From Xestospongia muta (taxonomy: Eukaryota; Porifera; Demospongiae; Haplosclerida; Petrosiidae): a stretch of 64,000 bases of DNA. The DNA is taken from assembly GCA_963693285.1 (NCBI GenBank), contig OY848918.1:8621156-8685155 (forward strand), in the 5' to 3' direction. Numbering within the stretch: position 1 is the stretch's first letter; each line of letters begins with the position of its first letter. The position numbers and the translations under genes are program-made. Positions 5,980-45,386 of the stretch are shown here, piece by piece. The notes under the pieces are model-generated. The model was not told the DNA's origin. It saw nothing but the letters and a program-made list of their open reading frames with translations, and made no database searches.

Positions 5980-8860
5980 ATGAAAGAGTATGGTACAATA
6001 CTGATTTGTCTTCTATTACCAGTCATAAGTGAGTTAATATATAATATTTGTTAGTATGACCTTACAGTGAACATAGAAGCTTCAGTTACAAGTCTAGACT
6101 GTAATCATGGAGTATGTCCACATACACAAGGAGCACTCACTTGTACAATAACAGGAAGTGTAGCAGCTTGGTATAGTCCTCCATCAGATAGTAGTCCCAT
6201 TGCTACAGTAAGTTCTGGACAAGTTAGTAATGTTGATAATTCTGGGTTTACTGCTGCTCTTGTGAGCAATACTTCTGAACTAACAACTAATTTAAGTTTT
6301 ACTGCCACTACTGATAAGAATGGAACAAAAGTCAGGTGTGCTGATTTAATAGATACAAACTCAATGACTTGTACTATTGTGATATCAGGTATGTCACTAA
6401 CAGTATCATAATATATAACTAACATTTACTATCATTATAAGGTCCTTCAAGTGATGCTCCTACAGGACTGAGTTTTACAGCTCTCACAAACACTTCAGTC
6501 ACTCTCTACTGGTCACCTCCTACTCTTTATCCTAACTGTATAGTTAACTACACTGTTGAGATCAAGACAACCAGTGATAATACATTGATCAGTAGTCTTA
6601 GTACTGGTAGTAATATCACCAGTATTAATGTATCTACTGGTCTCAATCAGTCAGTAGAGTATCAATACAGAGTAGTAGGGTCTGATGCTATTAATAGATT
6701 AGGACCCTATAGTCAATACACTAAATTCACTTTAGATGGTAAGAGTTAGATTATTCTAGTTCCCTTGAGGAGTGCTAATTTTTAGTTCTACAGGCTGTAC
6801 CATTAATTACTTATAATATCACAAAGAATACAGACAACTACACAATTGTTGTAATGTGGGAGGTATGTATTTCTGTTTATAATAACTGAGTCTAGTTTTT
6901 ATTTAGTCATCTCCTCTTTCCTCTCATTCTCCTCTCTTGTACTACAAAGTCTATCACAATATATCAGGTTCACTAACTGTTAATATAACTACTGTTACTT
7001 ATATTACATTGACTGGAGTATTAGCTGGATATACGTACATTATAACAGTGGTACCAGTTAATATACTAGGAGATGGATACCCTAATAAGACTATAGGTTA
7101 TTTAAATATTATTATAAAGTATGTTATGTTTACTTTTCTCATACAGTTATTATTCCTAAACAACCAATAATTACTAGTACTAGTATTGTAACAATATCAT
7201 CTGAACATTGTAAGAGTGTAACATACAAAATTAATTACATATCATTTGTATTAGTAACACCAGTAAATGTAACTAGTCTCTTTTCTACAACTGTAAGTGA
7301 TACATCAATTATTAGTAAGTGCAAAATATTTATAATCACTTTAACTTAATGATGAATATAGAAACTTTGGTCCCTTTGATGTCTTTATTACAAAGTGCAA
7401 CTAAAACAGGTACAATATCTTTAAACTCAACAGGTATGTCCTCAGAAATTATTATATTTTAAGTATTACAATATAATAAACTGTCTATATATATATACTC
7501 TATTTTTGTATAGCAGTTTCTATCTATAGCCTGTCAGGTTCATCTCCTACAAGTAATTTAATTAATCTAATATAACATTGCTATTTCTATTTGACAATAG
7601 CAGTAATCACTACAACAACATCATCAACATCTGCTGGAATATATTATGTTATTGGGACTGTTGGAGGTATTATTGTTTTCATACTAATTGCTGTAGTACT
7701 AGTTCTAACTGGTTGTATAATGATTAGAAGACTAAATAAAAGTCAGGTGTTCCTATAATTACTTAATCCTTTAATACTCTCAATATAGACAACAAACCAA
7801 ATGGTAGTCCAGTAACTGTTTCTCTGAGGTCAGTTCAAATATACTAATATTTATTTTAATGATTATACTTTAGAAGCATTAAAGACAATAACAGAGAAGA
7901 GGTAAGGTATTGTTACTTATATGTACATAGTTAATACCTGCATGAGTAAATAAATGAACATTTATTGATACAAAAGTTGGATTGATCATCATGACTCATT
8001 ATTAGTTTATGTTATCTAATTTGGAGTTACTCATCATTTCTTAAAATAATTTGGTCATTACTATAGTTATCTTCAGACCCCACCTATGATGAAGTAAACA
8101 AGAAACCACAACCTCTATCTCTACAATATGATGAGGTCCCTCCTCCAGTGCCTCCTTATTTAGCTGATAATGACCAGCCACCTCCTGAACCACTGTTCCA
8201 TTCTGAGGATAATCCTTCTGTACCCTCTTACAATGATGAACTTGTGATAACTCAGTATTCTGAAGTCAAGAGAGAGCATATAGCACTTCATACAGCTGAA
8301 GGAAATTATTCTGTTTTGAAGAGAGAAGAGAGAGAAGTCAGTTAAATGTAGGTACACAATCACATGACCATATTATTGTAGAGCAGAGAGAATAATTCTC
8401 AGTTATAACAGACTGGTTTGTATTCAACTCTAAATAATGAAGTATGAAATAAAACAGTCAATTATATCATAATAACTTACATCATATTAGATAAACAAAC
8501 CAATTGGAGGCAGAGCTGAGCCAAGAGGAGCTGGAGGTATAATATATGCTGAACTAGGCAATGTCCCTAAGAACAGACCAATGGTACCTCCTCCATCTAA
8601 TTTAGAGTATTCTGTTATCTACTCTGATATCAAAGCACCAACTAACCCTAATAAGGTATCTTGTGTGATATAACAATGTTGCCATAATCTTCTTCAATTG
8701 TCACTAACAGAGGCTCTCTACAAAAGGTATTATGATACAGGCTCAGTTAGGAGAAATGGAGTTACCTCCATCACGTCCTCCTAAACCTGGTCCAAACCCT
8801 GGTTTCCATGGCAGTGGAGGCCAGTCAACAACAGTAATTCCCTCTATACATCACCTGTAA
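5980..8860 (+). CDS. Type A receptor: signal peptide, Ig-like, 2 FN3, stalk, TM, ITIM/ITSM tail
   Basis: Predicted exons: 5,980-6,028 signal peptide (MKEYGTILICLLLPVI); 6,077-6,388 Cys-rich Ig-like domain with CTITG and W; 6,442-6,738 FN3; 6,786-6,862 and 6,907-7,096 second FN3; 7,147-7,209, 7,255-7,314, 7,362-7,433 and 7,514-7,552 Ser/Thr stalk; 7,601-7,741 TM; 7,789-7,828, 7,874-7,901, 8,067-8,336, 8,382-8,441, 8,491-8,655 and 8,711-8,860 tail. All ectodomain junctions are phase 1. Tail motifs are TYDEV, LQYDEV, TQYSEV (ITSM-type), NYSVL, IIYAEL and VIYSDI (ITIM-type), then a PxxPxK site. The role is inferred: a surface receptor recruiting SH2 proteins after tyrosine phosphorylation. Oddity: the 60-base symmetric exon 8,382-8,441 has TAA at 8,406-8,408. 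Including it truncates the tail before the ITIMs; skipping it restores about 650 residues. Reading through at 8,337 also stops (VS*). The ligand is unknown. Confidence 0.75.
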
Positions 8861-10500
8861 AAATGATCATAACTCACTTCTGACTTATATAATGTTAAAT
8901 ATGTCACATTTTAGTTCATTATTTAATTTTGTCATATTTTATATATTAATAGTTTTTAGCTTTTGTCAAACTAGTATCATTTATTTATTAACTATAATAT
9001 GTTAACTAGTATTTGTTTACATATGAACTTCATATGATCACTTTGTATCATTATAGCAGCTGTCAGTATTAATTATTAATCACTAGTCTTCTCAATATTT
9101 ATTGTGACATGTATATATATATATATATATATATATTTAGCTAATGTATGTTTATTTAATATCCTTACATCATCTGATGCATCATCCTTATTTCAAAGGT
9201 AAACTTATTTTATCTCATAAATAAACACACATTACTATAGACCACATAAAACATAGAACAGTATACAAAGTAACTTGTGTACTACTTCAAATTAGTGTTA
9301 ATTGACTGATGATATATGTATGATTAGCATATGTAATAGTTGAAAGGTAAGTAAGTGGTAACTGACTAGGTATTTCATTTATTATTATTGTCATAACATA
9401 AAACTAATAATGATAAAGTTAATTATAAATAGTTTTATCTTACCACAATATTATCAATGAAGTATAATAACACAACAAACATAAAACTTACAAAAATCAT
9501 CAAAGGAATTAACTAAAAATGGACCAGTTATTTATAAAACAAACGAGTTAACAAGTTTTGAACTTTTAGTCACAAAAACTAATCAGACCATCTTCCAAAA
9601 TACATACACATGTACTTGTACAAATATCAATTAAAAGAAGGGTAGCTTATAGAGGCAGTGACTAGATACAGCCTTCTGCCACCACAACAGACAAAGCCCA
9701 CCCCACTGAGTCACACCAAAGTTACCTTCACCAGATAATGATAAAAAGATGTCTTGTTTATTTTATTTATTTATTGACTAATACATCTTATTTTTCTAAT
9801 GTATATAGTTTAATACTTTTACTACCCCTCTCCCAGACTGACTCTCTGTAATGTAACATCTATCCAATGGGCCATATTGTATGCATTAAAAGCATGACTG
9901 AGTGAATTAAATAAAGGAGGGAAATCAGAATAGTAGGTAGTTGTAATGGTGGTCTTGAAACCAGATATTCTCCTAGTGAAACTTCTGATTTCAAGACTGC
10001 TTTTTTTAATTTATTAAAGTCATTTGAGTTTCTAGGTATATTCATATATATTTTAGTTGTAAAGTAATCCACCAAATAAGAAATTTTATTTGAAAATTCT
10101 GGCTGTCATTGGCTATCTTCATCAGTAATATTACAAAAAGCATAGAGAGGCAGTCAATAAATAAAATTAAAATGAATAAACAAATAAAGATAAGAATGTA
10201 CTTTAAAACATGATGAGGACAATATAAGGATGAATAGTTAAGCTATATACTAGTACTGGATAAAAGATTAGTACATATACTTGTACTACATAATATGTAA
10301 CAATATTACATACTGAGTTATATTAATGTATGAATATTGTACAAACAATATTTAAACTATAGTTAATACTACTTTTATTATACATGTTATATATAAGGTA
10401 TATAGCTTATAGCATTAGGTGTTATTCATGGAACAATGTTAGTTTGTGATCCAACTAATCCAGGCGATACTTGATGTCTTAACAATAATATGTTATAATA
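8861..10500. repeat. Intergenic repeat block, copy C
   Basis: Third copy of the spacer block, the closest to copy A because it keeps the 470-760 segment. It includes a short (AT)n run at 9,112-9,137. No coding exon is recognisable. Confidence 0.7.
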
Positions 10501-10511
10501 AAACAATTCAG

Positions 10512-11815
10512 GTGTGTTGATGTAATAGATACAACTTCAATGACTTGTAATATTATGATATCAGGTATGTCACTAACAGTATCATATATAACTAACATGT
10601 ACTATCATTATAAGGTCCTTCAGGGATACTCCTACAGGACTGGGTTTTATAGCTCTCACAAACACTTCAGTCACTCTTTACTGGTCACCTCCTACTATTC
10701 ATTCTAACTGTATAGTTAACTAGACTGTTGATATCAGAACAACCAATGATATTATATTGATCAGTAATCTTAGTACTGGTAGTAATATCACCAGTATTAA
10801 TGTATCTTCTGGTCTCTCTCAGTCAGTAGAGTATCAATACAGAGTAGTAGGGTCTGATGCTGTTAATAGATTAGGACCCTACAGTCAATATACTATGTTC
10901 ACTTTAGATGGTAAGAATTAGATTATACTAGTTTCCTTGAGGAGTGCTAATTTTAAGTTCTACAGGCTGTACCACTAATCACTTATAATATCACAAAGAA
11001 TACAGACAACTACACTATTGTTATAATTTGGGAGGTATGTATTTCTGTTTATAATAACTGAGTCTAGTTTTCTATATAGTCACCTCCACTCTCCACTCGT
11101 CCTCCTCTCTTGTACTATAAAGTCTATCATAACATATCAGGTTCACTAACTGTTAATATAACTACTGTTACTAACATTACATTGACTGGAATACTAGCTG
11201 GATATATCTACATTATAACAGTGGTACCAGTTAATATACTAGGAGATGGATACCCTAATAAAACTATAGGTTATTTAAATATTATTATAAAGTGTGTTAT
11301 ATTTACTTCTCATACAGTTATCATTCCTGATGAGGAACCAATAATTACTAGGACTAGTATTGTAACAATATCATCTGAACATTGTAAGAGTGTAACATAC
11401 AAAATTAATTACATATTATTTGTATTAGTAACACCAGTAAATGTAACTAGTCTCTTTTCTACAACTGTAAGTGATACATCAATTATTAGTAAGTGCAAAA
11501 CATTTACTATCACTTACTTAATGATGAGTATAGAAACTTTGGTCCCTTTGATGTCTTTATTACAAAGTGCAACTAAAACAAGTACAATATCTTTAAACTC
11601 AACAGGTATGTCCTTAGAAAATATTATAATTTAAGTATTACAATATAATGAAATGTCTATATATATATACTCTATTTTTGTATAGCAGTTTCTATCTATA
11701 GCCTGTCAGGTTCATCTCCTACAAGTAATTTAATTAATCTAATATAACATTGCTATTTCTATTTGACAATAGCAGTTATCACTACCACAACATCATCAAC
11801 ATCTGAACAAAATGT
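10512..11815 (+). pseudogene. Receptor pseudogene, broken inside the TM exon and joined to the next copy
   Basis: Remnant Ig tail to 10,564, then FN3 10,615-10,910 (296 bases against 297, so frameshifted near the start, with a TAG where others have a Tyr codon). Next come 10,958-11,034 and 11,080-11,269 (second FN3), and stalk exons 11,318-11,383, 11,429-11,488, 11,534-11,605 and 11,686-11,724. The TM exon starts normally at 11,773 but after about 30 bases turns into the intron that precedes the Ig exon of the following gene. There is no signal exon. The downstream exons keep correct phases and splice sites, so decay is recent or sequence is being refreshed by gene conversion. Confidence 0.7.
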
Positions 11816-11852
11816 AGGATGCTATAAATATCATTATATATAGTTTATATAG

Positions 11853-13773
11853 AAGTTTCAGTTACAAGTCTTGAATGTAATCATGGAGTATGTCCACAGA
11901 CACAAGGAGCACTCACTTGTACAATAACAGGAAGTGTAGCAGCTTGGTATTCTCCTTCATCAGTTAGTACTCCCATTGCTACAGTAAGTTCTGGACAAGT
12001 TAGTAATGTTGATAATACTGGGTTTACTGCTGCTCTTGTGAGCAATACTTCTGGACTAACAACTATTTTAAGTTTTACTGCCACTACTAATAATAATGGA
12101 ACACAAGTCAGGTGTGCTGATTTAATAGATACAAACTCAATGACTTGTACTATTATGATCTCAGGTATGTCACTAACAGTATCATATATAACTAACATGT
12201 ACTATCGTTATAAGGTCCTCCAAGTGATGTTCCTACTGGACTGTGTTTTACAGCTCTTACAAACACTTCAATTACTCTCTACTTTTACAGTTTACAGTTT
12301 TACAGATTTACAGTTATCTCAAACACTTCAGTCACTCTCTACTGGTCACCTCCTACTCTTCATCCTAACTGTATAGTTAACTACACTGTTGAGATCAGGA
12401 CAACCAGTGATAATATATTGATCAATAGTCTTAGTACTGGTAGTAATATCACCAGTATTAATGTATCTACTGGTCTCAATCAGTCAGTAGAGTATTAATA
12501 CAGAGTAGTAGGGTCTGATGCTATCAATAGATTAGGACCCTATAGTCAATATACTATGTTCACTTTGGATGGTATGAATTAATTAGTTTTAATATTATAT
12601 TAAGTGATCTGCTTTATTAGTTCTAGAAGCTGTACCACTAATCACTTATGCAATTACAAACAACATAGACAGCTATAATATTTTTATTTTTTGGGAGGTA
12701 TGTTATTTATAATTACTTGAAATGTTATTCTAGTTTCATTTAGTCTCCTCCTCTCTCTTCTCGTCCTCCTCTCTTGTACTACAAAGTCTATCACAACATA
12801 TCAGGTTCACTAACTGCTAATATAACTACTGTTACTAACATTACATTGACTGGAGTACTAGCTGGATATACCTACATTATAACAGTGGTACCAGTTAATA
12901 TACTAGAAGATGGATACCCTAATAAGACTATAGGTTATTTAAATATTATTATAAAGTGTGTTATGTTTACTTCTCATATAGTTATCATTCCTAATGAGGA
13001 ATTAATAATAACTAGTACTAGAGTTGTCATATCCTCATCTAAATATCACGGTAAGACTATTTACATATAGGTAATATTACTTATATAAACTGTAATAGTA
13101 TCAAAATCATTGATAATTATACATAGTTCATATTCTACAACAATAATGATCACAAGTGATTCATACAGAATATGTAAGTGTAGGTTCAATGATATATATT
13201 TTTTATAATTAATATAGCAACTACACATACATGTCCTTTCATATCCTTGTCAACTTTAACAAATACTATGTCTTCACAGTCAACTAGCAGTATGACATAC
13301 ATAATCTCATTGAACACTATCTTTTTTACATTGTAGATACAATTTATTTAAGTTCCTTAATGATTTCTACTTTGAAAGTGACTGTATCTTCAACTGTAAC
13401 TACTTCAACTTGTCCATTTACATTATAATAATAGTTGAAGTTTATATAATTATCTTGCCCATTACAGCTATTGTAAACCAACAAACATCATGTTTAGCAG
13501 GTAATTTATAAAACAAACATGTTACATTAATAAATTATTTACTTAACAGTGAGTATACCAGTCAGTATGTTCCTCTCTTTTCTATTAACTGCTGTTATTA
13601 CTACACTTATTGTCTATCTCATTATGAGGAGGAGGAGCTACAATAAAGACACTCCACCCATTACTACTACCCAATTAGGTCCAATATATGATGATGTTAA
13701 GTTACCAGAGACCTCAGAACAGAAAGAGATCATTGAATTAGAAGGAAATACTGCTTATGGATATATTACTTAG
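11853..13773 (+). pseudogene. Type B receptor copy with premature stop and no signal exon
   Basis: Exons: Ig-like 11,853-12,164; FN3 12,215-12,571; second FN3 12,621-12,697 and 12,744-12,933; stalk 12,982-13,050, 13,218-13,289 and 13,468-13,500; TM and tail 13,550-13,773. The FN3 exon carries an in-frame 60-base insertion that duplicates its NTSxTLY segment, and a CAA-to-TAA change at 12,495-12,497. The Ig exon follows directly on the broken preceding gene, so no signal peptide is available. The final exon is open and encodes the type B TM, an MRRR stop-transfer, IYDDV and TAYGYI. Probably non-functional, or at best a source of short products. Confidence 0.7.
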
Positions 13774-14501
13774 AGAATTTCATACTTTATATCATAAAAT
13801 AGACATTTTTGGACATGATTGTGTCAAGTTTTAAGTGTTACACATATAAGTTATACATAATATTTGATGAAAATTAGATTTTATTAATTTAAATGACCCA
13901 AGATGGTAAGTGTGTTGAGACTAAAGAGAGACTTGCAGTTATTATTACAATAAAAATGGAGATGAATAACTTCAGGTCAGTAAGATTATTAAATGTACAT
14001 AGTCCTTTCAACAAAAGCAGCAAGATTTAACAAATTATTTTATCTTATAATGTTGATTATGTTAAGAATCTATAAATCCTTTATACTAGACTCTACATCT
14101 TTATTGCTCAACATATATAATTTTGTAATTTGTTCAAACAACACTTGTAGTTATTACTCAATAAACTTCATTCAATTTCTAGTTTGATTGTTTCCACTTT
14201 CAGAGTGAAAGTATTTTAATGAGTAAATAATCTTTATTATTAGTCAGTAAAGTGGAAGTATAATGCAATGTTAATCCTCCTATATATTATTAGTAAAAGA
14301 ATTCTCATCAAAGGTCCAACAATTGATTTAAAACACACACAATACAAGCATGTTAAACTCAAATTTGTATATTGACCAATTAATCCTAATATAAACTCAA
14401 CCCACATAACACACCACCTCCAAATATAAATAAGTCTAACAGGTATCATTGTCGTTCATAAATCCATTGTGTCATAATGATAGTCTACCTATCAAGTCAA
14501 A
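13774..14501. other. Intergenic, promoter-like 3' half
   Basis: No coding exon seen. From about 13,980 on the sequence matches the DNA upstream of the receptor start at 5,980. A TATA-like ATATAAATAAG lies near 14,422, roughly 80 bases before the next ATG. Confidence 0.4.
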
Positions 14502-17446: not shown

Positions 17447-17521
17447 GGATGTTAAATAAGTTGTATGATTCACCTCAGTCTTATTAAAAATTTAACCAAA
17501 CAATTACCACACCCAACAAAT

Positions 17522-18949
17522 ATGAAGAAGTATGTAAGACTGGTTTACTTTCTTTTTTATCTTATACGTAAGTTATCATTAAATTATTTTTCATACACAT
17601 TGCAATAAATCTGTATACCCACATATAGGTAGCACAGAAGCTTCAGTTACAAGTCTAGAATGTAATCATGGAGTATGTCCACAGACACAAGGAGCACTCA
17701 CTTGTACAATAACCGGAAGTGTAGCAGCTTGGTATTCTCCTCCATCAGATAGTACTGCCATTGCTACAGTAAGTTCTGGAGAAGTTGTTAATAGTAAAAC
17801 TGAGTTTACTGGTGCTCTTGTGAGTGTTAACAATCCTGGACTAACAACTAATTTAAGTTTTATTGCCACTACTGATAAGAATGGAACACAAGTCAAGTGT
17901 GTTGATACATTTGATATAAACTCAATGACTTGTACTATTATGATATCAGGTATGTCACTAACAGTATCATATATAACTAATATGTACTATCATTATAAGG
18001 TCCTCCAAGTGATGATCCTACAGGATTGGGTTTTACAGCTCTCACAAACACTTCAGTCACTCTTTACTGGTCACCTCCTACTCTTCATCCTAACTGTATA
18101 GTTAACTACACTGTTGAGATCAGGACAACCAGTGATAATATATTGATCAGTAGTCTTAGTACTGGTAGTAATATCACCAGTATTAATGTATCTACTGGTC
18201 TCTCTCACTCAGTAGAGTATCAGTACAGAGTAGTAGGGTCTGATACTATCAATAGATTAGGACCCTATAGTCAATATACTGTGTTCACTCTGGATGGTAT
18301 GAATTGAATAATTTTTATCCATTAATGAATATTTCATTAGTTCTACAGGCTGTATCACTAATCACTTATAATATCACAAAGAATACAGAGAACTACACTA
18401 TTGTTGTGATTTGGGAGGTGTATATTATTGTTTATAATAACTGAGTCTAGTTTTTTCATTTAGTCTCCTCCACTCTCCTCTCGTCCTCCTCTCTTGTACT
18501 ATAAAGTCTATCACAACATATCAGGTTCACTAACTGTTAATATAAGTACTGTTACTAACATTACATTGACTGGAGTACTAGCTGGATATACCTACATTAT
18601 AACAGTGGTACCAATTAATATACTAGGATATGGATACCCTAATAAGACTATAGGTTATTTAAATTTACACTTTTATCAGGTAACTAACTTTACAAGATAT
18701 AATTATGAACTTTATATTATAGTTGCTATACCAGTCAGTATGTTCCTCTCTTCTCTATTAACTGCTGTTATTACTACACTTATTGTCTATCTCATTATGA
18801 GAAGGAGGAGCTACAATAAAAACACTCCACCCACTACTACTACCCAATTAGGTCCAATATATGATGATGTTAAGTTACCAGAGACATCAGAACAGAAAGA
18901 GATCATTGAATTACAAGGAAATACTGCTTATGGATATATTCGTCATTAG
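17522..18949 (+). CDS. Type B receptor without stalk exons: signal peptide, Ig-like, 2 FN3, TM, short tail
   Basis: Exons: 17,522-17,567 signal peptide (MKKYVRLVYFLFYLI); 17,629-17,949 Ig-like; 18,000-18,296 FN3; 18,341-18,417 and 18,464-18,653 second FN3; 18,723-18,949 TM and tail. Phases agree throughout and give 385 residues. The Ig-like exon keeps C-x4-C-P, CTITG, W and the distal KC...C pair. The tail has MRRR, IYDDV and TAYGYI, the latter fitting the ITSM form TxYxxI. The four stalk exons of the sister genes are absent: a deletion joined the intron after the second FN3 to the end of the last stalk exon. Splicing the resulting 69-base intron, or retaining it, both keep the frame. Likely a surface receptor with a membrane-close ectodomain; ligand unknown. 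The Ig acceptor could also lie at 17,638. Confidence 0.75.
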
Positions 18950-20511: not shown

Positions 20512-20519
20512 TTAGAAAA

Positions 20520-23170: not shown

Positions 23171-25056
23171 ATGAAGAAGTATGCAAGACTGGTTTACTTT
23201 CTCTTTTATCTTATATGTAAGTTATCATCAAATTATTTTTCATATACATTGCAAACAATCTGTATACCTACCTATAGGTAGCACAGAAGCTTCAGTTACA
23301 AGTCTAGACTGTAATCATGGAGTATGTCCACAGACACAAGGAGCACTCACTTGTACAATAACAGGAAGTGCAGCAGCTTGGTATTCTCCTCCATCAGATA
23401 GTACTCCCATTGCTATAGTCACTTCTGGATTAGTTAGTAATGTTGATAATACTGGGTTTACTGCTGCTCTTGTGGGCAATACTTCTGGACTAACAACTAA
23501 TTTAAGTTTTATTGCCACTACTGATAAGAATGGAACACAAGTCAGGTGTAGTGATGTAATAGATACAAACTCAATGACTTGTACTATTATGATATCAGGT
23601 ATGTCACTAACAGTATCATATATAACTAACATGTACTATCATAATAAGGTCCTCCAAGTGATGTTCCTACAGGACTAGGTTTTACAGCTCTCACAAACAC
23701 TTCAGTTACTCTCTACTGGTCACCTCCTACTCTTTATCCTAACTGTATAGTTAACTACACTGTTGAGATCAGGACAACCAGTGATAATATATTGATCAGT
23801 AGTCTTAGTACTGGTAGTAATATTACCAGTATTAATGTATCTACTGGTCTCTATCAGTCAGTAGAGTATCAGTACAGAGTAGTAGGGTCTGATGCTATTA
23901 ATAGATTAGGACCCTATAGTCAATATACTGTGTTCACTCTGGATGGTATGAATTGAATAATTTTTATCTTAATTAATACTTTATTAGTTCTACAAGCTGT
24001 GCCACTAATTACTTATAACAATACAAAAAATATAGAAAACGACTCTATTCTTATACAATGGGAGGTATAAATATATTATTTATGACTTGATATTATTCTA
24101 GTTTCATTTAGTCTTCTCTTCTCTCCTCTCGTCCTCCTCTCTTGTACTACAAAGTCTATCACAATATATCAGGTTCACTAACTGTTAATATAACTATTGT
24201 TACTAACATTACATTGACTGGAGTACTAGCTGGATATACCTACATTATAACAGTGGTACCAGTTAATATACTGGGAGATGGATACCCTAATAAGACTATA
24301 GGTTATTTAAATATTATTATAAAGTGTGTTACATTTACTTCTCATACAGTTATCATTCCTAAAGAACAAATAGTTTCAATATGTTTTAATAGTGAGAAAA
24401 ATAAATAAAGGTATTAACTTTCATTAATTTTGTGTATTCCTTTGTTAGTTTCACAAATAACATCAATAATTGGAAGTGGGTCTTTAACAACTTCAGGTAA
24501 TATTAGGCTAATCAATGACTACAGTCATACTCCAATGGCTAATTTATAATGACTTATGCTATTATTTGTCTTTAATATATAGCAAATAATATTATGTCAT
24601 CAATTTACACTACTAATACATTCGTTTCGAGTGCTATCACCCGTATTGTTCCATCTGCCACTATAACATCAACCACATTGATAACTACATCAATAATTCT
24701 ATTGTCAGGTAAATCCATTAATAACTCTGCTATTAAAATTAAATATATAATTATATATGCAGATGAACTAACAGTTACACTTTTATCAGGTAACTAACTT
24801 TACAAGATATAATTATGAACTTTATATTATAGTTGCTATACCAGTCAGTATGTTCCTCTCTTCTCTATTAACTGCTGTTATTACTACACTTATTGTCTAT
24901 CTCATTATGAGGAGGAGGAGCTACAATAAAGACACTCCACCCACTACTACTACCCAATTAGGTCCAATATATGATGTTAAGTTACCAGAGACATCAGAAC
25001 AGAAAGAGATCATTGAATTACAAGGAAATACTGCTTATGGTTATATTCAGCATTAG
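23171..25056 (+). CDS. Type B receptor with four stalk exons (unit 2)
   Basis: Exons: 23,171-23,216 signal peptide; 23,278-23,598 Ig-like; 23,649-23,945 FN3; 23,988-24,064 and 24,112-24,301 second FN3; 24,350-24,391, 24,449-24,496, 24,583-24,708 and 24,763-24,789 stalk; 24,833-25,056 TM and tail. Every junction is phase 1 except the one inside the second FN3, and the joined frame encodes 465 residues. If the Ig acceptor is at 23,277 a Cys is created at the junction, giving six Cys in the domain. The tail has IYDV in place of IYDDV, which moves the +3 hydrophobic position, then TAYGYI. The stalk is Thr/Ser/Ile-rich and likely O-glycosylated (inference). The gene faces a truncated minus-strand receptor. 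Confidence 0.78.
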
Positions 25057-29758: not shown

Positions 29759-31659
29759 ATGAAGAAGTATGCAAGACTGGTTTACTTTCTCTTTTATCTT
29801 ATATGTAAGTTATCATTGAATTATTTTTCATACACATACACATACACATTGCAAACAATCTGTATACCTACCTAAAGGTAGCACAGAAGCTTCAGTTACA
29901 AGTCTAGACTGTAATCATGGAGTATGTCCACAGACACAAGGAGCACTCACTTGTACAATAACAGGAAGTGCAGTAGCTTGGTATTCTCCTCCATCAGATA
30001 GTACTCCCATTGCTATAGTCACATCTGGATTAGTTAGTAATGTTGATAATACTGGGTTTACTGCTGCTCTTGTGGGCAATACTTCTGGACTAACAACTAA
30101 TTTAAGTTTTATTGCCACTACTGATAAGAATGGAACACAAGTCAGGTGTAGTGATGTAATAGATACAAACTCAATGACTTGTACTATTATGATATCAGGT
30201 ATGTCACTAACAGTATCATATATAACTAACATGTACTATCATAATAAGGTCCTCCAAGTGATGTTCCTACAGGACTAGGTTTTACAGCTCTAACAAACAC
30301 TTCAGTCACTCTTTACTGGTCACCTCCTACTCTTCATCCTAACTGTATAGTTAACTACACTGTTGAGATCAGGACAACCAGTGATAATATATTGATCAGT
30401 AGTCTTAGTACTGGTAGTAATATCACCAGTATTAATGTATCTACTGGTCTCAATCAGTCAGTAGAGTATCAGTACAGAGTAGTAGGGTCTGATGCTGTTA
30501 ATAGATTAGGACCTTATAGTCAATATACTGTGTTCACTCTGGATGGTATGAATTGAATAGTTTTTATCTTAATTAATACTTTATTAGTTCTACAAGCTGT
30601 GCCACTAATTACTTATAACAATACAAAAAATATAGAAAACGACTCTATTCTTATACAATGGGAGGTATTAATATATTATTTATGACTTGATATTATTCTA
30701 GTTTCATTTAGTCTTCTCCTCTCTCCTCTCGTCCTCCTCTCTTGTACTACAAAGTCTATCACAATATATCAGGTTCACTAACTGTTAATATAACTATTGT
30801 TACTAACATTACATTGACTGGAGTACTAGCTAGATATACCTACATTATAACAGTGGTACCAGTTAATATACTGGGAGATGGATACCCTAATAAGACTATA
30901 GGTTATTTAAATATTATTATAAAGTGTGTTACATTTACTTCTCATACAGTTATCATTCCTAAAGAACAAATAGTTTCAATATGTTTTAATAGTGAGAAAA
31001 ATAAATAAAGGTATTAACTTTCATTAATTTTGTGTATTCCTTTGTTAGTTTCACAAATAACATTAATAATTGGAAGTGGGTCTTTAACAACTTCAGGTAA
31101 TATTAGGCTAATCGATGACTACAGTCATACTCCAAAGGCTAATTTATAATGACTTATGCTATTATTTGTCTTTAATATATAGCAAATAATATTATGTCAT
31201 CAATTTACACTACTAATACATTCGTTTCGAGTGCTATCACCCGTATTGTTCCATCTGCCACTATAACATCAACCACATTGACAACTACATCAATAACTCT
31301 ATTGTCAGGTAAATCCATTAATAACTCTGCTATTAAAATTAAATATATAATTATATATGCAGATGAACTAACAGTTACACTTTTATCAGGTAATTAACTT
31401 TATAAGATATAATTATGAACTTTATATTATAGTTGCTATACCAGTCAGTATGTTCCTCTCTTCTCTATTAACTGCTGTTATTACTACACTTATTGTCTAT
31501 CTCATTATGAGAAGGAGGAGCTACAATAAAAACACTCCACCCACTACTACTACCCAATTAGGTCCAATATATGATGATGTTAAGTTACCAGAGACATCAG
31601 AACAGAAAGAGATCATTGAATTACAAGGAAATACTGCTTATGGATATATTCGTCATTAG
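29759..31659 (+). CDS. Type B receptor with four stalk exons (unit 3)
   Basis: Exons: 29,759-29,804 signal peptide; 29,878-30,198 Ig-like; 30,249-30,545 FN3; 30,588-30,664 and 30,712-30,901 second FN3; 30,950-30,991, 31,049-31,096, 31,183-31,308 and 31,363-31,389 stalk; 31,433-31,659 TM and tail. The joined frame is open for 466 residues. It is nearly identical to the genes at 23,171 and 36,205 across exons and introns, indicating recent duplication or conversion. The tail has the IYDDV form. The Ig acceptor is AAAG here instead of ATAG (29,877), or the later CACAG at 29,886. Confidence 0.78.
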
Positions 31660-35230: not shown

Positions 35231-35247
35231 TACCACACCCAACAAAT

Positions 35248-36090: not shown

Positions 36091-36129
36091 CTAAAATATT
36101 ATCATCACTCGTTGATGCTAATATTTTAG
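36091..36129. promoter_or_regulatory. 39-bp palindrome, copy 4 (centre changed)
   Basis: Same altered centre as copy 3, upstream of the start at 36,205. Confidence 0.5.
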
Positions 36130-36204
36130 GGATGTTAAATAAGTTGTATGATTCACCTCAGTCTTATTAAAAATTTAACCAAACAATTACCACACCCAAC
36201 AAAT

Positions 36205-38102
36205 ATGAAGAAGTATGCAAGACTGGTTTACTTTCTCTTTTATCTTATATGTAAGTTATCATTGAATTATTTTTCATACACATACACATACACATTGCAA
36301 ACAATCTGTATACCTACCTAAAGGTAGCACAGAAGCTTCAGTTACAAGTCTAGACTGTAATCATGGAGTATGTCCACAGACACAAGGAGCACTCACTTGT
36401 ACAATAACAGGAAGTGTAGCAGCTTGGTATTCTCCTCCATCAGATAGTACTCCCATTGCTATAGTCACATCTGGATTAGTTAGTAATGTTGATAATACTG
36501 GGTTTACTGCTGCTCTTGTGGGCAATACTTCTGGACTAACAACTAATTTAAGTTTTATTGCCACTACTGATAAGAATGGAACACAAATCAGGTGTAGTGA
36601 TGTAATAGATACAAACTCAATGACTTGTACTATTATGATATCAGGTATGTCACTAACAGTATCATATATAACTAACATGTACTATCATAATAAGGTCCTC
36701 CAAGTGATGTTCCTACAGGACTAGGTTTTACAGCTCTAACAAACACTTCAGTCACTCTTTACTGGTCACCTCCTACTCTTCATCCTAACTGTATAGTTAA
36801 CTACACTGTTGAGATCAGGACAACCAGTGATAATATATTGATCAGTAGTCTTAGTACTGGTAGTAATATTACAAGTATTAATGTATCTACTGGTCTCTAT
36901 CAGTCAGTAGAGTATCAGTACAGAGTAGTAGGGTCTGATGCTATTAATAGATTAGGACCCTATAGTCAATATACTGTGTTCACTTTGGATGGTATGAATT
37001 GAATAATTTTTATCTTAATTAATACTTTATTAGTTCTACAAGCTGTGCCACTAATTACTTATAACAATACAAAAAATATAGAAAACGACTCTATTCTTAT
37101 ACAATGGGAGGTATAAATATATTATTTATGACTTGATATTATTCTAGTTTCATTTAGTCACCTCCTCTCTCCTCTCGTCCTCCTCTCTTGTACTACAAAG
37201 TCTATCACAATATATCAGGTTTACTAACTGTTAATATAACTATTGTTACTAACATTACATTGACTGGAGTACTAGCTGGATATACCTACATTATAACAGT
37301 GGTACCAGTTAATATACTGGGAGATGGATACCCTAATAAGACTATAGGTTATTTAAATATTATTATAAAGTGTGTTACATTTACTTCTCATACAGTTATC
37401 ATTCCTAAAGAACAAATAGTTTCAATATGTTTTAATAGTGAGAAAAATAAATAAAGGTATCAACTTTCATTAATTTTGTGTATTCCTTTGTTAGTTTCAC
37501 AAATAACATCAATAATTGGAAGTGGGTCTTTAACAACTTCAGGTAATATTAGGCTAATCGATGACTACAGTCATACTCCAAAGGCTAATTTATAATGACT
37601 TATGCTATTATTTGTCTTTAATATATAGCAAATAATATTATGTCATCAATTTACACTACTAATACATTCGTTTCGAGTGCTATCACCCGTATTGTTCCAT
37701 CTGCCACTATAACATCAACCACATTGATAACTACATCAATAATTCTATTGTCAGGTAAATCCATTAATAACTCTGCTATTAAAATTAAATATATAATTAT
37801 ATATGCAGATGAACTAACAGTTACACTTTTATCAGGTAACTAACTTTACAAGATATAATTATGAACTTTATATTATAGTTGCTATACCAGTCAGTATGTT
37901 CCTCTCTTCTCTATTAACTGCTGTTATTACTACACTTATTGTCTATCTCATTATGAGAAGGAGGAGCTACAATAAAGACACTCCACCCACTACTACTACC
38001 CAATTAGGTCCAATATATGATGTTAAGTTACCAGAGACATCAGAACAGAAAGAGATCATTGAATTACAAGGAAATACTGCTTATGGTTATATTCAGCATT
38101 AG
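36205..38102 (+). CDS. Type B receptor with four stalk exons (unit 4)
   Basis: Exons: 36,205-36,250 signal peptide; 36,324-36,644 Ig-like; 36,695-36,991 FN3; 37,034-37,110 and 37,158-37,347 second FN3; 37,396-37,437, 37,495-37,542, 37,629-37,754 and 37,809-37,835 stalk; 37,879-38,102 TM and tail. Open for 465 residues. The tail has the IYDV form, as at 25.0 kb, while its Ig promoter region resembles unit 3, so parts have been exchanged between copies. It converges on the only intact minus-strand receptor. Confidence 0.78.
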
Positions 38103-38527
38103 TTTTAATAGACTTATAGACTAGTTATTGTTTTACTTTAATCTCACTATGTTTACCCTAAATAGATAATAATTAAAATGCTGCAATGTTATAGATTATT
38201 ATCATGTTAATGAAAAACATGTTATTTATTAGGACAACAAACAACAGCATCATAATGATTTTAAAGATATTATATAAGTTTTGGCAAGATTACAATGCTT
38301 TAAAATAACAGTACAAAATCCTAGACATCACATGCCATTATTCTTTTAACTATAAGAAAATTCATTTGTATCAACTTCTAAATTTAATTTTGCCCATATA
38401 TGGCAAAACACACAATTACTAATAATAGTTCTTGTACAGCGTGCAATTATCAAAATGTGTATTTACTATATTTACTTAAAATTACATAAAATTATTATTT
38501 CTTTTTTCTTAAACAATCCCAAAGTAA

Positions 38528-41060
38528 TCATATTGGCTTTGCAACATCATCTATTAATAAACAAGATTTAATAAAGATATAAACTATATGGTGACGTACC
38601 TCTTAAAATGTGTTCATGTTGATATTTGCAAATACACCTAATCGATATGATCATTAGCACTAGAAGTAAAACTATTACCAGGGCCAAGATTACCACAGTT
38701 ACCCCAAAAATTATAATACCTATTAGAAAGAATACAGTTGAATAAAAATGTAATGTCAATGTTAAAAGGTCTTAGTTAATTTTATTGGTTCTAATAGAGG
38801 AAACATCTAAACTGAGACTGGTGAATTAGCAGAGGCTATGGCAAACCTTCCAGTTGTATACCGATTGTCATAATGCTTGAGGTAAGTAATTATATTATTA
38901 GTATATTATTCAAAGCTTCTGATAGTCATATATACTTCATGCCATAGTCCACAATAGCAATGGATGTAACAAAAAGTAAATCATGCATTTATCTGTTTTG
39001 ATCAGACTAAAAGATATACTCAGTTATTGTGTATGTATGTCATATGTATGTCATATGTATGTTGGCTAGAACAATATTTGGTTATCAAAACAATTCATAT
39101 CCACAATAAAATAATCATGATAAGAAAAGGGAGACAAAAAGTCCCTTTGAGGAAATATTAACTGACTTAGCAATTATAACTTGTGTATGTAGTACTTGTG
39201 TTAAAGCAAATTTAATCAGTTAGGGTGTGTATTGGTAGCAGTTTTTGTCAAATCATGAGAAAACATTATATACTAACCAGTTGTTTGAAAATATGGACAA
39301 TCTTGTGACATATTAGGTGAACAACTTGGAGTTGAAATTGGACTTGGACAACTTGATGGAGATGGAACTAAGTTAACCACTGAAACAAATCAATAGTATT
39401 AATATAATTATTATTATTTTAATGTCTAAGTCTTACAGAAAAATGATGATGTCTGACAGGTTGGTCCTCTTGTTCCTAAGAAATCAATTGGAGTAATGGT
39501 CACATTATAAAGAGTTCCATCAGCCGGAACACCAGTAATAGAAACAAAAGTCATGTCAGTAGTCCCCTCAGATACATATGCAATAGGTGGATTTAACTTG
39601 TAATGATAAATTACAGCACAGTCTGAAGCAGACCAGGTCACATTTATATTAACTGTACTTGTGTTATCATCGTTAATAACTACATCATTCAATAAAGCAG
39701 GGTCACAGGAATCAGGTTCATCTAGAAGAGAACAAGATTAAATTGTAAAAAATCATCTTAAAATTAATGAAATTAGTAGAAGCTATGGTGTCTCGATAGC
39801 ATGTGAGATGTCATTTCTTCTTGTGAATAACATTTAGACATACTTTTAAATAATACAACAAAACATGTATGACAGTTTATGTTAAACAATAGAGACTGAG
39901 TCAATTATTTTAGTCATGGGACACCCACATTAGCCATATTGGAAGGCAACTTTATAGGGACAAACTATGCCAAGATAGTGTTTATAGCTTTTTTTAGAAA
40001 ACGAGTACATTTTAATAAAGTATGTTACACATCTCAAGGTGCTATTTAATATAATATAACAAATAGTTTTAATTCAACTTGGACAACTCCAAAAATTCTA
40101 AAAGAATAAGATACTATTTTGTCAGTAATTCCCTTCAAAAAAGGCTGCCATGTCCATAAAATGCATAGCTCATCAATGACGTTTTTAATATCATGTACAA
40201 AGCCTCTATTTGATAGATTGACTTGTATCAGACAATACAGGTTATTAAAATTTTAAATTACTCCTAGCAAATAATAGTCACTTATACTAACTGTCACATC
40301 CTGTATGTCATGCCCTATTCAAAGTGCTCTCAGTAAAAGTACTAATACATATTAATTGCTATGTGCATCAATGATACTTATATTGGTTAATTTCATTTTT
40401 CAATACTCTTGAAAGACGCATACAACTATAAGTAACAATTGTGAAATGGATATATAGATATATAATTATATATACATGTTGCCTAAAACAATCCTAGGAC
40501 TATCTGGCATATTGTACATATCAGGACAGAATAATGGTCAGATAAAACTAGTTTCATCAATATAATATACTCTACATTATTGAGTAACCTTTTTGAATTA
40601 AGGAACATTCCAAACTGGATACAGCAAGTACATCAGTACACCTCAATGTGTCACTACCAATAGAACGAGACATTCCATAGTTCACAATAGCAATGGATGT
40701 AACAGTTGGTATTGTATTGTTAGTTAGAATGAATGTAAAATTTCCTTGTGTCACACTAGAATTAACAGCATTGCCAGTAGAAAATGGATGTAGACTTTGT
40801 CCTATACTTGTATCATTGAAGAAAGATCGCCATTGTAGCACTTGACCATCAATTGTACATCTGAATACTTGTTCTGAGGCTGGACAGAGCTCGTTTGGGC
40901 AAGACACATATTGTCCATTGCGTAGCACACTAAGATCTTTTACAACCCCTTCACAGAAGCCTAACAGTAGCATAGAAAATAATATATAGTACCAACGATG
41001 ATTTAAGACTAAAAATTACTACTTACCGACAGTCAACAGTAGAACAAAAAGTAAGCACAT
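38528..41060 (-). CDS. Intact minus-strand receptor: signal peptide, Ig-like, FN3, stalk, TM, short tail
   Basis: Minus-strand exons: 41,060-41,027 signal peptide (MCLLFVLLLTV); 40,960-40,589 Cys-rich Ig-like domain; 39,721-39,437 a complete FN3 domain in one exon; 39,379-39,278 stalk rich in Pro, Ser and Cys; 38,719-38,600 TM; 38,550-38,528 end (DDVAKPI). All junctions are phase 1 and the joined frame encodes 311 residues. The Ig-like exon shares the exact Cys/Trp spacing of the plus-strand family (C-x4-C-P-x7-C-T-I-x-G-x4-W, then C-x-D-x8-C) although other residues differ. The tail is short and has no YxxV/L/I motif, and the TM has no charged residue, so how it would signal is unclear: a decoy, an adhesion partner or a ligand are possible. 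It is head to head with the large type A gene. Confidence 0.78.
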
Positions 41061-42196
41061 CTCTAAGGTGACACTGTCAAGTTAACGCCGGACCCACCCT
41101 GAACGTAAGTAACGTGACTCACCCAACTCTATGTCGAAAGTCACGTGAATAACTCTCCTACGGTGGGTTATAATAGTTATTATATATCATTGTTGTACGC
41201 CCACATAATATGATTTTTTAAAATCTAAAATAAAAGTCTATCAATTAGAGCGTTCCCGGCTAACTTAGCGATTAGCATTTATAACAATATATAGTGCTAC
41301 AAATTTGGTTTGCATGTTACTATACTTTTAGTTTAGGGTCTAGGATATAACATTAATTTCTCATTGAAGTATAGACTTCTTGTGCCATAATGAATAGCCA
41401 CTCCCTAAATTTAAGATAAGAATGTGTATTGATTAGTCTTGTGTAGCTGGACCCTCGCTCCTAGATCTGTAGAAGGAAGGGTCTGGTTAACTGCAGTAGA
41501 GTGAATTGACCATTGAACTGATGGATGGTAAGTGGATAGTGAAACCACACATTGTTAATATGCAATTCATCAATTCAATAACTTAACACAAGTTTAATTA
41601 CATTGAATTTTTAGGAGGCATAGAGGTTGAAGAATGTACAAAAATCAAAGGACATAAACACTTGTCCAGTCATTGAAATTAATAATAATTAATATACATT
41701 GTATAATATTAGAATTATGCTACAACTTATTACACAGAAGGGCACATATTCTGATAATGCACTGATAATACTGAATGAAAGGATAAACAAATATAAAAGA
41801 AATACATTGGTCTAAGTTACAATGTGTTTTTTCACGGGTCACAAAAGAAAACATGGTAAATAAAGTGGCTGTGAAAGTGGAGATTATAAGCAGTGTCAGT
41901 ATTACAGAGATATGAAATAAGGAGATCCTGGCAAACAGAATAAGTTTTAATTTCTAATAATTAATGTTTTTATTATATTGTTGGTTACTACGTTTTTCAT
42001 CATCTCTTCAGTTAATGTTCTCAGGTAGTTTCTAGGAAAGAGGTTAATTTGTTTAAAGTATTCATAACAATGAGGTGTGGCCTTATGTATTTAAAAAGCG
42101 AGTGGGCGTCTCCAGAACGAGATTATCATTGTTCAGAATCGTAAAGGTGTGTCTATCATCAAATCCAATATACATGCTTGCAGCTGAGTTTTGGAC
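41061..42196. promoter_or_regulatory. Head-to-head intergenic region between two intact receptors
   Basis: About 1.1 kb of sequence not seen elsewhere in the window separates the minus-strand start (41,060) from the plus-strand start (42,197). It is less AT-rich near the minus start and includes TCACGTGA (about 41,142) and a GTGGGCG motif in each orientation (41,198-41,204 reverse, 42,102-42,108 forward). Compatible with a shared bidirectional promoter. Confidence 0.45.
42088..42095 (+). promoter_or_regulatory. TATA-like box for the 42,197 receptor
   Basis: TATTTAAA about 100 bases before the start codon, directly followed by the GTGGGCG motif. Confidence 0.4.
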
Positions 42197-45100
42197 ATGG
42201 CTGAGAAAGAACACTTCATAGTTTTACAGCTACTTTTTATAATAGCAGGTGCTCAACTAGCATAGTGTGACATAAAATTCTGATGTAGTTTATTTTGATT
42301 TTGCTTATAGAAGCTTCAGTTACAAGTCTAGACTGTAATCATGGAGTATGTCCACAGACACAAGGAGCACTCACTTGTACAATAACAGGAAGTGTAGCAT
42401 CTTGGTCTTCTCCTCCATCAGATAGTAATCCCATTGCTACAGTAAGTTCTGGACAAGTTAGTAATGTTGATAATACTGGATTTACTGCTGCTCTTGTGAG
42501 CAATACTTCTGGACTAACAACTAATTTAAGTTTTATTGCCACTACTGATAAGAATGGAACACAAGTCAGGTGTAGTGATGTAATAGATACAAACTCAATG
42601 ACTTGTACTATTATGATATCAGGTATGTCACTAACACTATCATATATAACTAACATGTATTATAACTATAAGGTCCTTCAAGTGATGCTCCTACAGGACT
42701 GGGTTTTACAGCTCTCACAAACACTTCAGTCACTCTCTACTGGTCACCTACTCTTCATCCTAACTGTATAGTTAACTACACTGTTGATATCAGGACAACC
42801 AGTGATAATATATTGATCAGTAGTCTTAGTACTGGTAGTAATATCACCAGTATTAATGTATCTACTGGTGTCTCTCAGTCAGTAGAGTATCAGTACAGAG
42901 TAGTAGGATCTGATACTATCAATAGGTTAGGACCCTATAGTCAATATACTGTGTTCACTCTGGATGGTATGAATTGAATAATTTTTCTATTAATTAATAC
43001 TTTATTAGTTCTACAAGCTGTGCCACTAATCACTTATAACACTACAAAAAATATAGAAAACGACTCTATTCTTATACAATGGGAGGTATAAATATATTAT
43101 TTATGATTTGATAATATTCTAGTTTCATTTAGTCTCCTCCTCTCTCCTCTTGTCCTCCTCTCTTGTACTACAAAGTCTATCACAACATATCAGGTTCACT
43201 AACTGTTAATATAACTACTGTTACTAACATTACATTGACTCGAGTACTAGTTGGATATACCTACATTATAACAGTGGTACCAGTTAATATACTAGGAGAT
43301 GGATACCCTAATGAGACTATAGGTTATTTAAATATTATTATAAAGTGTGTTATGTTTACTTCTCATACAGTTATCATTCCTGATGAAGAACCAGTTACTA
43401 CTAGTACTAGTGTTGTAACAACATCATCTCAATATCATAGTAAGAGTTTTTAATATAAAAATATTATTAATTTTTAAACAATCAATTATTTAACATCAAT
43501 ACACTATTAGGTGTACTTAGTACATTGTCTACAACTGTAGTCATGACAAGTGATACATCAAATATTAGTAAGTGTACAATAATGTATTAAATGTTACTGT
43601 CATAATTAACTTGTGATGGAGTATAGAAACTACAATTACTACAATGTCTTCATCACAAATTACAACTGAGACAATTACTGTATCTTCATACTTATCTAGT
43701 ACGTTCTATGTATTTTGAAAAATGTTTGTTAGTAATGTATTACAAATATATGGATATATATATATATATATATGCACACTTATATATATATTCTGTTTTC
43801 ATACATCAGGTTCTACGTTTACATTATTAAGTTCATTCCCTACAAATAATCTAACAAGTATTTAATCATTCAATAAATAAAAATATTATTTTTATCTTAA
43901 CAATAGCAGTAGTAACTACTACATCATCAACATCATCTATTGGAATATATTCTGCTGTTGGGACTGTTGGAGGTATTATTGTTTTCATACTAATTGCTGT
44001 AGTACTGGTTCTAACTGGTTGTATAATGATTAGAAGACAAAATAAAAGTCAGACCTCTTAAAATTTCTTGATCCTTTAAAACCCTCAATATAGATAACAA
44101 ACCAAGTGGTAGTCCATTAACTGTTTCTCTGAGGTAAACTAATACAGTTATGTGTTAACAGTTCAATGATCATACCTTAGAAGTATCAAAGACAATAACA
44201 TAGAAGAGGTATAATATTGTTACTTACATTTACAAAACTAAGAACAGGATTTTATATCCTATACAATAAAGCAAATAAGACATAGGAGTTATTTGATATC
44301 AAAATGAACTTACATTGAAATTACCATTAGTTGTAACATATTTAATTTCAGGAGCTAGTCATCATCCCTTTATATAAGATTCTATAGTTACATCCAGTTT
44401 TTATTAATGTCATTATAGTTATCTTCAGATCCCACCTATGATGAAGTAAACAAGAAACCACAACCTCTATCTCTACAATACGATGAAGTTCCTCCTCCCA
44501 TACCACCTTACTTAGCTAATAATGACCAACCACCTCCTATACCTCTGTTCGATGGTGGAGGTGAACCTCCTGTATCTCCTTATAATGGACCTTTGACAAT
44601 TCAGTACTCTGAAGTCAAGAGAGAAGATATGGCACCTCATTTACTACCTCATACTAGTACAGCAGCTGCAGCTGGAGAAGATTATTCAGTATTAAAGAGA
44701 AATGATATACCTAAGATACCACTACATAATGTGACAGCTGGAGGAGACTACTCTGTCATAAAGAGAGATGATGTATCTCGTGTACCACCTTATAGCACAT
44801 CAGCTGGAGGTGACTACTCTGTCTTGAAGAGAGAAGAGAGAGAGGTTAGTTAAACGTAGGTAGACAGTCATAGTCTAATTTATAATATTGTTATTATAGA
44901 GCAGAGAGAATAACTCTCAGTTACAACAAACTGGTTTGTATTCATCTCTAAATAATGAAGTATGAGATAAGACAGTTAACTATATCATAATAACTTATAC
45001 CATGTTAGATAAACAAACCAATTGGAGCCAGAGCTAAGCCAAAAGGAACTGGAGGTATCATATATGCTGAACTAAGCAATGCTCCTAAGAACAGACCAAT

Positions 45101-45386
45101 GACACCTCCTACATCAAATTTAGAGCAGTCTGTTATTTACTCTGATATCAAGCCATCAACTGATCCTAATAAGGTATCACATTTCATGATACTTCAATGT
45201 TGCTATAGTTACCATTCTCTTCTTTGTCACTAACAGAGGCTGTCTACAAGAGGTGCTATGATTCAGCCTCAGTTAGGAAACTTGGAGATTCCTCCACCAC
45301 GTCCTCCTAAACCTGGTCCCAAACCTGGTTCACATAGCAACAGAGGACAATCAATAACAGTAATCTCCTCCATACATCATCTGTAA
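42197..45386 (+). CDS. Large type A receptor with nine tyrosine motifs in its tail
   Basis: Exons: 42,197-42,248 signal peptide (MAEKEHFIVLQLLFIIA); 42,311-42,622 Ig-like; 42,673-42,966 FN3; 43,009-43,085 and 43,133-43,322 second FN3; 43,371-43,439, 43,511-43,567, 43,627-43,698 and 43,810-43,857 stalk; 43,907-44,047 TM; 44,094-44,133, 44,181-44,208, 44,419-44,844, 44,900-44,959, 45,009-45,173 and 45,237-45,386 tail. Open for 726 residues. Tail tyrosine sites in order: TYDEV, LQYDEV, IQYSEV, DYSVL, DYSVI, DYSVL, LYSSL, IIYAEL, VIYSDI, then PPPRPPKP (PxxPxK). Several fit the ITIM form. The first two are spaced like an ITAM but with Val at +3. The DYSV(L/I)KR unit is tandemly repeated three times; sister genes have one. 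Retaining the intron at 44,845 would end the protein after VS. Likely an inhibitory or docking receptor acting through SH2 and SH3 proteins (inference). Confidence 0.82.

Follow-up and report, generated by a model that had tools for sequence, protein, structure and literature searches.

A receptor gene array in a sponge genome

The window analysed here is a 64,000-nucleotide stretch of the Xestospongia muta genome (contig OY848918.1, our C2; C2:8621156-8685155), with a GC content of 29% and strong depletion of CpG. It contains a cluster of receptor genes in which one ectodomain design is joined to either a long or a short cytoplasmic tail. The long-tail gene at 42197-45386 on the plus strand is intact, with 16 exons encoding 726 amino acids and AG/GT at every internal border. 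It specifies, in order, a signal peptide, an immunoglobulin (Ig)-like exon termed here the V exon (42311-42622), two FN3 domains, the second split across two exons, a Ser/Thr-rich stalk, a transmembrane (TM) segment (43907-44047), and a tail of about 290 residues with a Pro-rich end. The original prediction, made from the window alone, counted two intact long-tail genes; this one holds, and the other (5980-8860, plus strand) is open in the searched exons apart from tail exon T2 (8382-8441), which an in-frame TAA interrupts. All four short-tail genes it called intact are open as spliced models with AG/GT at all internal borders. They lie on the plus strand at 17522-18949 (6 exons, 385 amino acids, without a stalk), 23171-25056 (10 exons, 465 amino acids), 29759-31659 (10 exons, 466 amino acids), and 36205-38102 (10 exons, 465 amino acids). 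Another short-tail gene (11852-13770, plus strand) has decayed, with a stop and an insertion in its FN3-1 exon. An apparent frameshift at the FN3-1/FN3-2 junction of several copies was removed, in the window genes modelled, by an upstream ATTAG-type acceptor. Models of the signal, stalk, and small tail exons cover the window genes alone.

The window covers about 5% of a much larger array. A search of the 158-Mb genome (28 contigs) with the V exon returned 96 near-full-length, stop-free copies, 94 of them within C2:7.37-8.69 Mb, and the short-tail exon returned 80 of near-full length that had no stop and shared at least 80% identity. Both counts are lower bounds, because only 150 of 240 and 150 of 228 candidates, respectively, were scored. 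All 99 candidates were scored for long-tail exon T3, giving 93 matches, of which 60 were near full length without a stop and 92 lay in C2:7.47-8.75 Mb. Copies were counted by hand from the match rows and had to be stop-free and to span query positions ≤2 to ≥110 of 113 (V), ≤2 to ≥73 of 75 (short tail), or ≤3 to ≥54 of 55 (T3). The receptor array is thus a block of about 1.4 million bases (C2:7.37-8.75 Mb). Two V exons of the same family lie far outside it, at C1:33166647-33166985 and C2:14852195-14852530, both on the minus strand.

A contiguous 264 kb that includes the window (C2:8461156-8725155) was read in detail. It contains 62 V-exon pieces, of which 26 are main-family exons that are full length and open, and the numerous decayed copies bear out the many broken copies originally described. 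Eight long genes have stop-free ectodomain and tail exons (8465867, 8478049, 8528432, 8576222, 8583063, 8610841, 8618453, and 8663465); one GC donor occurs among them, and some borders fall outside the match. In eight short genes the exons are open and every border tested is good. C2:8506044-8520958 resembles C2:8562307-8576554, a large duplicated block with short and long genes whose copies are about 55.6-56.3 kb apart.

The cluster had been assigned to a simple animal, and the mitochondrial code and tRNAs point to a sponge. A 4.3-kb piece of the mitochondrial contig C28 carries nad4L, cox1, trnS(uga), trnD, trnC, and nad1 (nad genes named by reading the translation, tRNAs by ARAGORN, which also reported a tRNA-Arg). 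The cox1 open frame has 12 TGA codons, nine of them inside the family match. Of its eight AGA/AGG codons, one precedes the start, and six of the other seven sit opposite Arg in the best PDB match. With AGR read as Arg and TGA as Trp in the mitochondrion, bilaterians are excluded, and the four tRNAs also speak against cnidarians, which makes a sponge the most likely source, with a placozoan as the alternative.

Exon queries against a protein database gave 170 matches of 698 candidates (120 listed), and the long tail gave 86 of 459. The full-length receptor had no match among 7988 scored from 5.8 billion proteins, probably because the database holds exon-sized open reading frames, which the exon queries then matched. 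A nucleotide search of phage records gave no match. One ENA contig is identified as this assembly by 6 of its 22 listed proteins, which match the 264 kb at 100%; the other large contigs have no such protein. V-exon repertoires on those other contigs differ from this genome (best match in the whole genome 88% for protein P0013 and 94% for P0038), and the contigs may be other haplotypes or other species.

Predicted V-type fold and tyrosine motifs

The main-family V exon has no significant match, Ig or other, among Pfam families or PDB sequences, and the best hit of a V profile against PDB sequences had an E value of 0.53 and was not Ig. AlphaFold, given a 119-row alignment, predicts a V-type Ig domain with C' and C'' strands at a predicted local distance difference test (pLDDT) score of 81; with eight window sequences alone, AlphaFold2 gave a pLDDT of 38. 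The 119 rows comprise 117 of the 120 listed proteins (P0005, P0113, and P0115 were excluded) and two window exons. All of 16 aligned exons, among them distant ones 20-24% identical to the rest, have Cys in the B strand, Trp in the C strand, and Cys in the F strand, and distant V relatives reach Pfam Ig_3 at E values of 0.012-0.033, short of the cut-off. What was originally described as a Cys-rich Ig-like exon is therefore a V-type Ig domain by its predicted fold, a description that no significant Pfam or PDB sequence match accompanies. Variation among V exons is concentrated in the loops resembling complementarity-determining regions (CDRs) and along the C'/C'' edge of the predicted fold. The top structural matches of the model include chains of the Dpr10/DIP-alpha and ZIG-8/RIG-5 complexes.

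The tandem FN3 domains are recovered directly by Pfam fn3, with two stretches in each of two genes, scores of 39 and 51 bits against a gathering cut-off of 25, and whole-protein E values of 9.5e-10 and 1.3e-13. Their sequence matches are to RPTP-F and titin, with a weak match to Dscam. At the right edge of the array, a divergent V-type family about 23% identical to the main one (L022:8722-8988, minus strand, and L023:7237-7506, plus strand) has short-tail receptors of its own; its ENA relatives match Ig_3 weakly.

Tyrosine motifs in the long tail, for which ITIM and ITSM sites (immunoreceptor tyrosine-based inhibitory and switch motifs) had been predicted, exceed chance. In the gene at 42 kb, 9 of 12 tyrosines lie in Yxx[VLI], a count reached in 0 of 20,000 shuffles, and four sites are strict ITIMs (p = 0.002 against shuffles). 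Motifs were then counted across the 264 kb in copies with the TM and all four searched tail exons, whether the ectodomain was present or absent. Complete long tails have Tyr at position Y1 in 11 of 13 cases and LQYxxV/I in 11 of 13; QYSEVK and YSVLK are each present in 13 of 13, and GLYxxL in 15 of 15. The residue at -2 of QYSEVK varies (T in 3, A in 4, G in 2, V in 2, S in 1, and I in 1), making the site an ITSM, an ITIM, or neither. Two sites that match the ITIM consensus, I[IV]Y[AV][ED]L and VIYSDI, are found in all 16 complete long tails; they lie within T3, an exon with a pooled dN/dS of 1.22, so that the motifs are retained while the remainder drifts. Yxx[VLI] is present in 86 of 86 long-tail relatives from ENA, many of which are taken to sit on the same contigs as V exons.

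The short tail has about 50 residues and two sites, PIYDDV (PIYDV in some copies) and TAYGYI. The genes at 17 and 29 kb keep YDDV; in those at 23 and 36 kb the site is PIYDVK, the V at +3 having been lost. Of 16 short-tail copies that include a V piece, 13 keep AYGxI (11 TAYGYI and 2 IAYGEI), and the other three are broken or changed. This conservation favours the ITSM-like site that had been noted in the short tail; in a single tail its occurrence is within chance (shuffles, ITSM p = 0.054 and Yxx[VLI] p = 0.11).

Exchange of V exons between tail classes

Gene C2:8633007, with a stop in FN3-1, was excluded from the ectodomain analyses, and the near-identical duplicates 8610841, 8567400, and 8576222 were excluded from the bootstrap dN/dS, codon models, and tail-label trees. 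Label counts also exclude two genes with an unassigned tail, and loci L007 and L008 were excluded since only the plus strand was used. On single-exon trees of 24 genes, the V tree has 8 changes of tail label against a shuffled mean of 7.9; there are 6 for FN3-1 and 3 for FN3-2 (shuffled means 7.8-8.0; 0 of 500 shuffles as low for FN3-2). V exons assort at random with respect to tail type, whereas FN3-2 exons do not. A single short-tail clade is rejected by the approximately unbiased test for V (p = 5e-53) and FN3-2 (p = 7e-5) and is not rejected for FN3-1 (p = 0.24); the V trees use 312 columns and have few well-supported branches.

The exchange is seen most directly in one pair of genes. The V exon of the short-tail gene at 17522-18949 is 98.7% identical to that of the long-tail gene C2:8506044. 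In 75-base steps, the two genes are 33-51% alike over 600 bases upstream, 96-100% in the V exon, and 95-99% in the next intron and most of FN3-1; identity then falls to 71-86%, returns to 96% in FN3-2, and is 33-47% from about 1 kb onward, on the tail side. The exchanged block therefore exceeds the V exon and takes in most of FN3-1 and part of FN3-2. The tail of 8506044 is truncated, and a near-identical copy, 8610841, has a complete, stop-free tail, so the same tip occurs behind two upstream regions and on two tails. Together with the trees, this pair substantiates the idea of one ectodomain on two tail types, in that the classes share V exons and have exchanged them.

The V exon has a pooled dN/dS of 1.29 (bootstrap 0.87-2.05), and the FN3 exons have one of 0.53 (0.37-0.73). 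In codon models of our own implementation, FN3 exons are under purifying selection (omega 0.49, p = 4e-11), and 16% of V-exon sites have omega near 3 (M1a versus M2a, p = 1.4e-4).

Remnants at 1655-5153 (plus strand) are truncated V and FN3 pieces, some with stops, and at 2564-3300 (plus strand) a long gene has left its TM segment and first tail exon; another remnant at 10504-11268 (plus strand) retains the 3' end of a V exon, an FN3-1 with a stop, and FN3-2. A minus-strand relative at approximately 38528-41060, read by eye, has a signal, a divergent V-type exon (40587-40946), one FN3-like exon, a TM segment, and a tail of about 17 residues with no YxxV/L/I site, in agreement with the motif-free relative originally reported; partial copies of its FN3-like exon lie near 20.3, 26.1, and 33.0 kb. 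At 51207-51611 (plus strand) lies a TM plus tail exon from another type of receptor, with three Yxx[I/M] sites (NEAYVII, NVAYSTM, and AVYETI); tails related to it are found again upstream of three short genes on the minus strand. The ENA protein P0141 joins a tail of this type to a long-tail piece, which suggests that tails may also recombine. Small Cys-rich open frames beside the array, at 55755-56749, look Kunitz-like by eye, and an open frame at 59731-60156 (minus strand) looks like a GIY-YIG-type mobile-element piece by eye and has no significant Pfam match.

A paired-receptor-like family and its possible uses

The same genome encodes putative effectors for ITIMs. An SH2 search gave 76 matches of 94 candidates, among them four open frames of 541-629 amino acids with two SH2 domains 318 nt apart; the best four matches to the protein tyrosine phosphatase (PTP) domain lie in the same frames. 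Three of these SH2-SH2-PTP genes are in tandem at C3:11956215-11961741 (plus strand) and one is at C5:8741067-8742560 (minus strand), all as single open frames, and a fifth, probably split locus lies at C8:8076976-8078868 (minus strand). Control searches of 14 named genomes found SH2 in 0 and PTP in 3. Humans have two SH2-SH2-PTP genes, and the five SHP-type loci, judged by their domains, amount to an enlarged complement of candidate ITIM effectors. Dense clusters of PTP exons at C11:3.76-3.99 Mb, C2:9.41-9.70 Mb, C12:0.98-1.34 Mb, and C7:0.3-0.72 Mb are perhaps receptor-type PTP arrays; the distance from one of them to the receptor array is 0.7 Mb. Clustered SH2 genes with long open frames lie at C8:6.53-6.58 Mb and C6:115-238 kb.

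We consider it likely that the locus is a germline array of single-pass receptors in a sponge that works like paired immune receptors. A V-type Ig tip, raised on two FN3 domains and mostly on a stalk, would use its CDR-like loops and C'/C'' edge to bind a variable ligand carried by another cell or by a microbe. Long tails phosphorylated at LQYDEV, IIYAEL, and VIYSDI would recruit SH2-SH2-PTP phosphatases and damp the response of the cell, and short tails under the same tips may engage different SH2 adaptors or kinases through YDDV and TAYGYI. V exons would be shuttled between the classes by gene conversion and duplication, making one specificity readable through either tail.

Several results weigh against this account. 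No charged TM residue occurs in either tail class (the short-tail TM is FLSSLLTAVITTLIVYLIM). An ITAM, the activation counterpart of the ITIM, has the form YxxL/I-x6-12-YxxL/I, and the short tail has none, its YDDV and YGYI being 19 residues apart. An activating short tail is rejected on these two absences, and the originally proposed "opposite" tails are not supported as worded; the ITSM-like site could have either sign. ITIM consensus by itself is no proof of function. The truncated long tails of 8506044 and 8562307, which lack T4 and lie outside the motif counts, read IIHAEL with His for Tyr at Y6 and are missing Y7 (VIYSDI); constraint on the long tails overall is weak (omega 0.88, with 1.77 in the TM exon and 1.22 in T3), and one of the two window genes called intact is stopped in T2. 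The bootstrap interval for V-exon dN/dS spans 1, and its maximum likelihood omega of 0.83 is not above 1 (likelihood ratio test, p = 0.28). M2a is also significant for the FN3 exons (p = 0.0012), so recombination may inflate the V site test, and omega does not differ between the CDR-like set (1.41, confidence interval [CI] 0.81-2.87) and the framework (1.19, CI 0.66-2.33). The analysis shows the gene structures of the window, the predicted V fold, where the variation lies, the conserved motifs, the V-exon exchange, and the SHP-type genes; from these patterns we infer that the genes are expressed and their tails phosphorylated, what kind of ligand the tips bind, which way the tails signal, and a part in telling self from non-self or in sensing microbes.

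Comparison with known systems narrows the label. Like vertebrate paired receptors, the genes are clustered, share an ectodomain, carry ITIMs in one class, and exchange the presumed ligand-binding exon; the short class lacks an Arg/Lys in the TM, although its tail is short. Classical activating partners are defined by that residue, and in KIR, LILR, and PILR, closely similar ectodomains with ITIM or short tails are clustered as here, with the activating partner pairing its TM Arg/Lys with an ITAM adaptor (PMC3533184). The Xenopus CEACAM cluster shares an IgV exon among ITIM/ITSM and other-tailed genes, with recent exchange centred on that exon, variation on the CC'C''/FG side, and V-exon dN/dS near 1.3, measured on orthologues there and on pooled paralogues here (PMC5112662). 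The sponge family differs in its FN3-FN3 and stalk, its far larger number of genes, a short tail without an ITAM, and an exchanged block that reaches FN3, and no sequence relationship was found. Given V-exon exchange of this kind and no vertebrate-type activating partner, our best reading is a germline-diversified, paired-receptor-like V-domain family. The 41 Hydractinia Alr genes, likened here from partial descriptions, also encode clustered surface proteins with V-set Ig domains, ITIM/ITAM-type tails, and many paralogues, but combine V-set with I-set domains rather than with two FN3, and allorecognition has been studied there alone. Botryllus FcoR genes lie in one locus and encode V-type Ig receptors whose tails carry ITIM, hemITAM, or Yxx[ILV] motifs, but have Sushi and C2 Ig domains in place of FN3 and are each paired with a fester gene (PMC12065747). 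Ig-bearing sponge surface proteins, according to partial descriptions, respond to grafting and have kinase or other tails with no ITIM array described; the aggregation factor, SRCR, and NLR families are likewise proposed in such accounts as multigene recognition molecules of sponges, with other domains by name.

Allorecognition and recognition of microbes are about equally likely uses of such a family. As an allorecognition locus, modelled on the Hydractinia Alr and Botryllus FcoR proposals, the V tips of conspecifics would bind each other or a linked partner, and long tails would signal "self, hold" through ITIM and SHP, an account that is credible without being the expected one. A large clustered V-domain family with ITIMs fits it, as do the different V repertoires on other ENA contigs, although these may come from other species and not from haplotypes. 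Passages in the literature report that cnidarian and tunicate allorecognition converge on ITIM/ITAM signalling while sponge, cnidarian, and ascidian candidates are not conserved (PMC12065747), that Ig-bearing kinases and adhesion molecules rise in grafted sponges (PMC2248247), and that receptor expression is individual-specific in a sponge (PMC8242945); counting against this use, the main text of an Amphimedon graft transcriptome contains none of the terms immunoglobulin, fibronectin, FN3, or receptor (PMC5450542). Microbe or symbiont receptors deserve the same qualified credence. By analogy with the argument made for CEACAM, the ITIM form would be original and exploited by pathogens, and short forms would track it by V-exon conversion. 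The position of variation and the V-exon exchange seen here resemble the nonsynonymous change on the CC'C''FG face and the IgV-exon conversion between ITIM/ITSM and ITAM-like genes described in passages on CEACAM (PMC5112662), but the short tail has no ITAM and the exchanged block in the best pair exceeds the V exon.

Cell-adhesion or developmental identity molecules of the Dpr/DIP or Dscam kind, rather than defence receptors, would account for the structural matches to Dpr10/DIP-alpha and ZIG-8/RIG-5 and for the FN3 matches to RPTP-F, titin, and, weakly, Dscam. We regard this as unlikely, since it is unusual for such molecules to turn over fast, to leave many pseudogenes, to exchange V exons between tail types, and to conserve ITIMs. 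That the array is mostly decaying or artefactual, with uncollapsed haplotypes and few working genes, is highly improbable: near-identical blocks do recur and only 26 of the 62 V pieces in the 264 kb are main-family, full length, and stop-free, but the same region holds eight long and eight short genes with stop-free ectodomain and tail exons, and purifying selection acts on the FN3 exons. We reject false duplication as a complete explanation, because the genes differ and FN3 is constrained.

No ITIM receptor in a sponge is reported in the titles, abstract openings, and passages covered of the open PMC literature. If the paired-receptor reading holds, the coupling of IgV domains to ITIM/SHP signalling either predates the divergence of sponges from other animals or evolved a second time within sponges. 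A bolder and rather doubtful proposal is that the array is the sponge allorecognition complex, with a germline V repertoire of about 100 exons, specificity set by V-exon exchange, and ITIM receptors facing short-tail receptors; if true, it would place the V-domain and ITIM/SHP logic of natural killer-type receptors at the base of animals. The cluster offers a single locus at which grafting, haplotypes, and SH2 signalling may be studied together.

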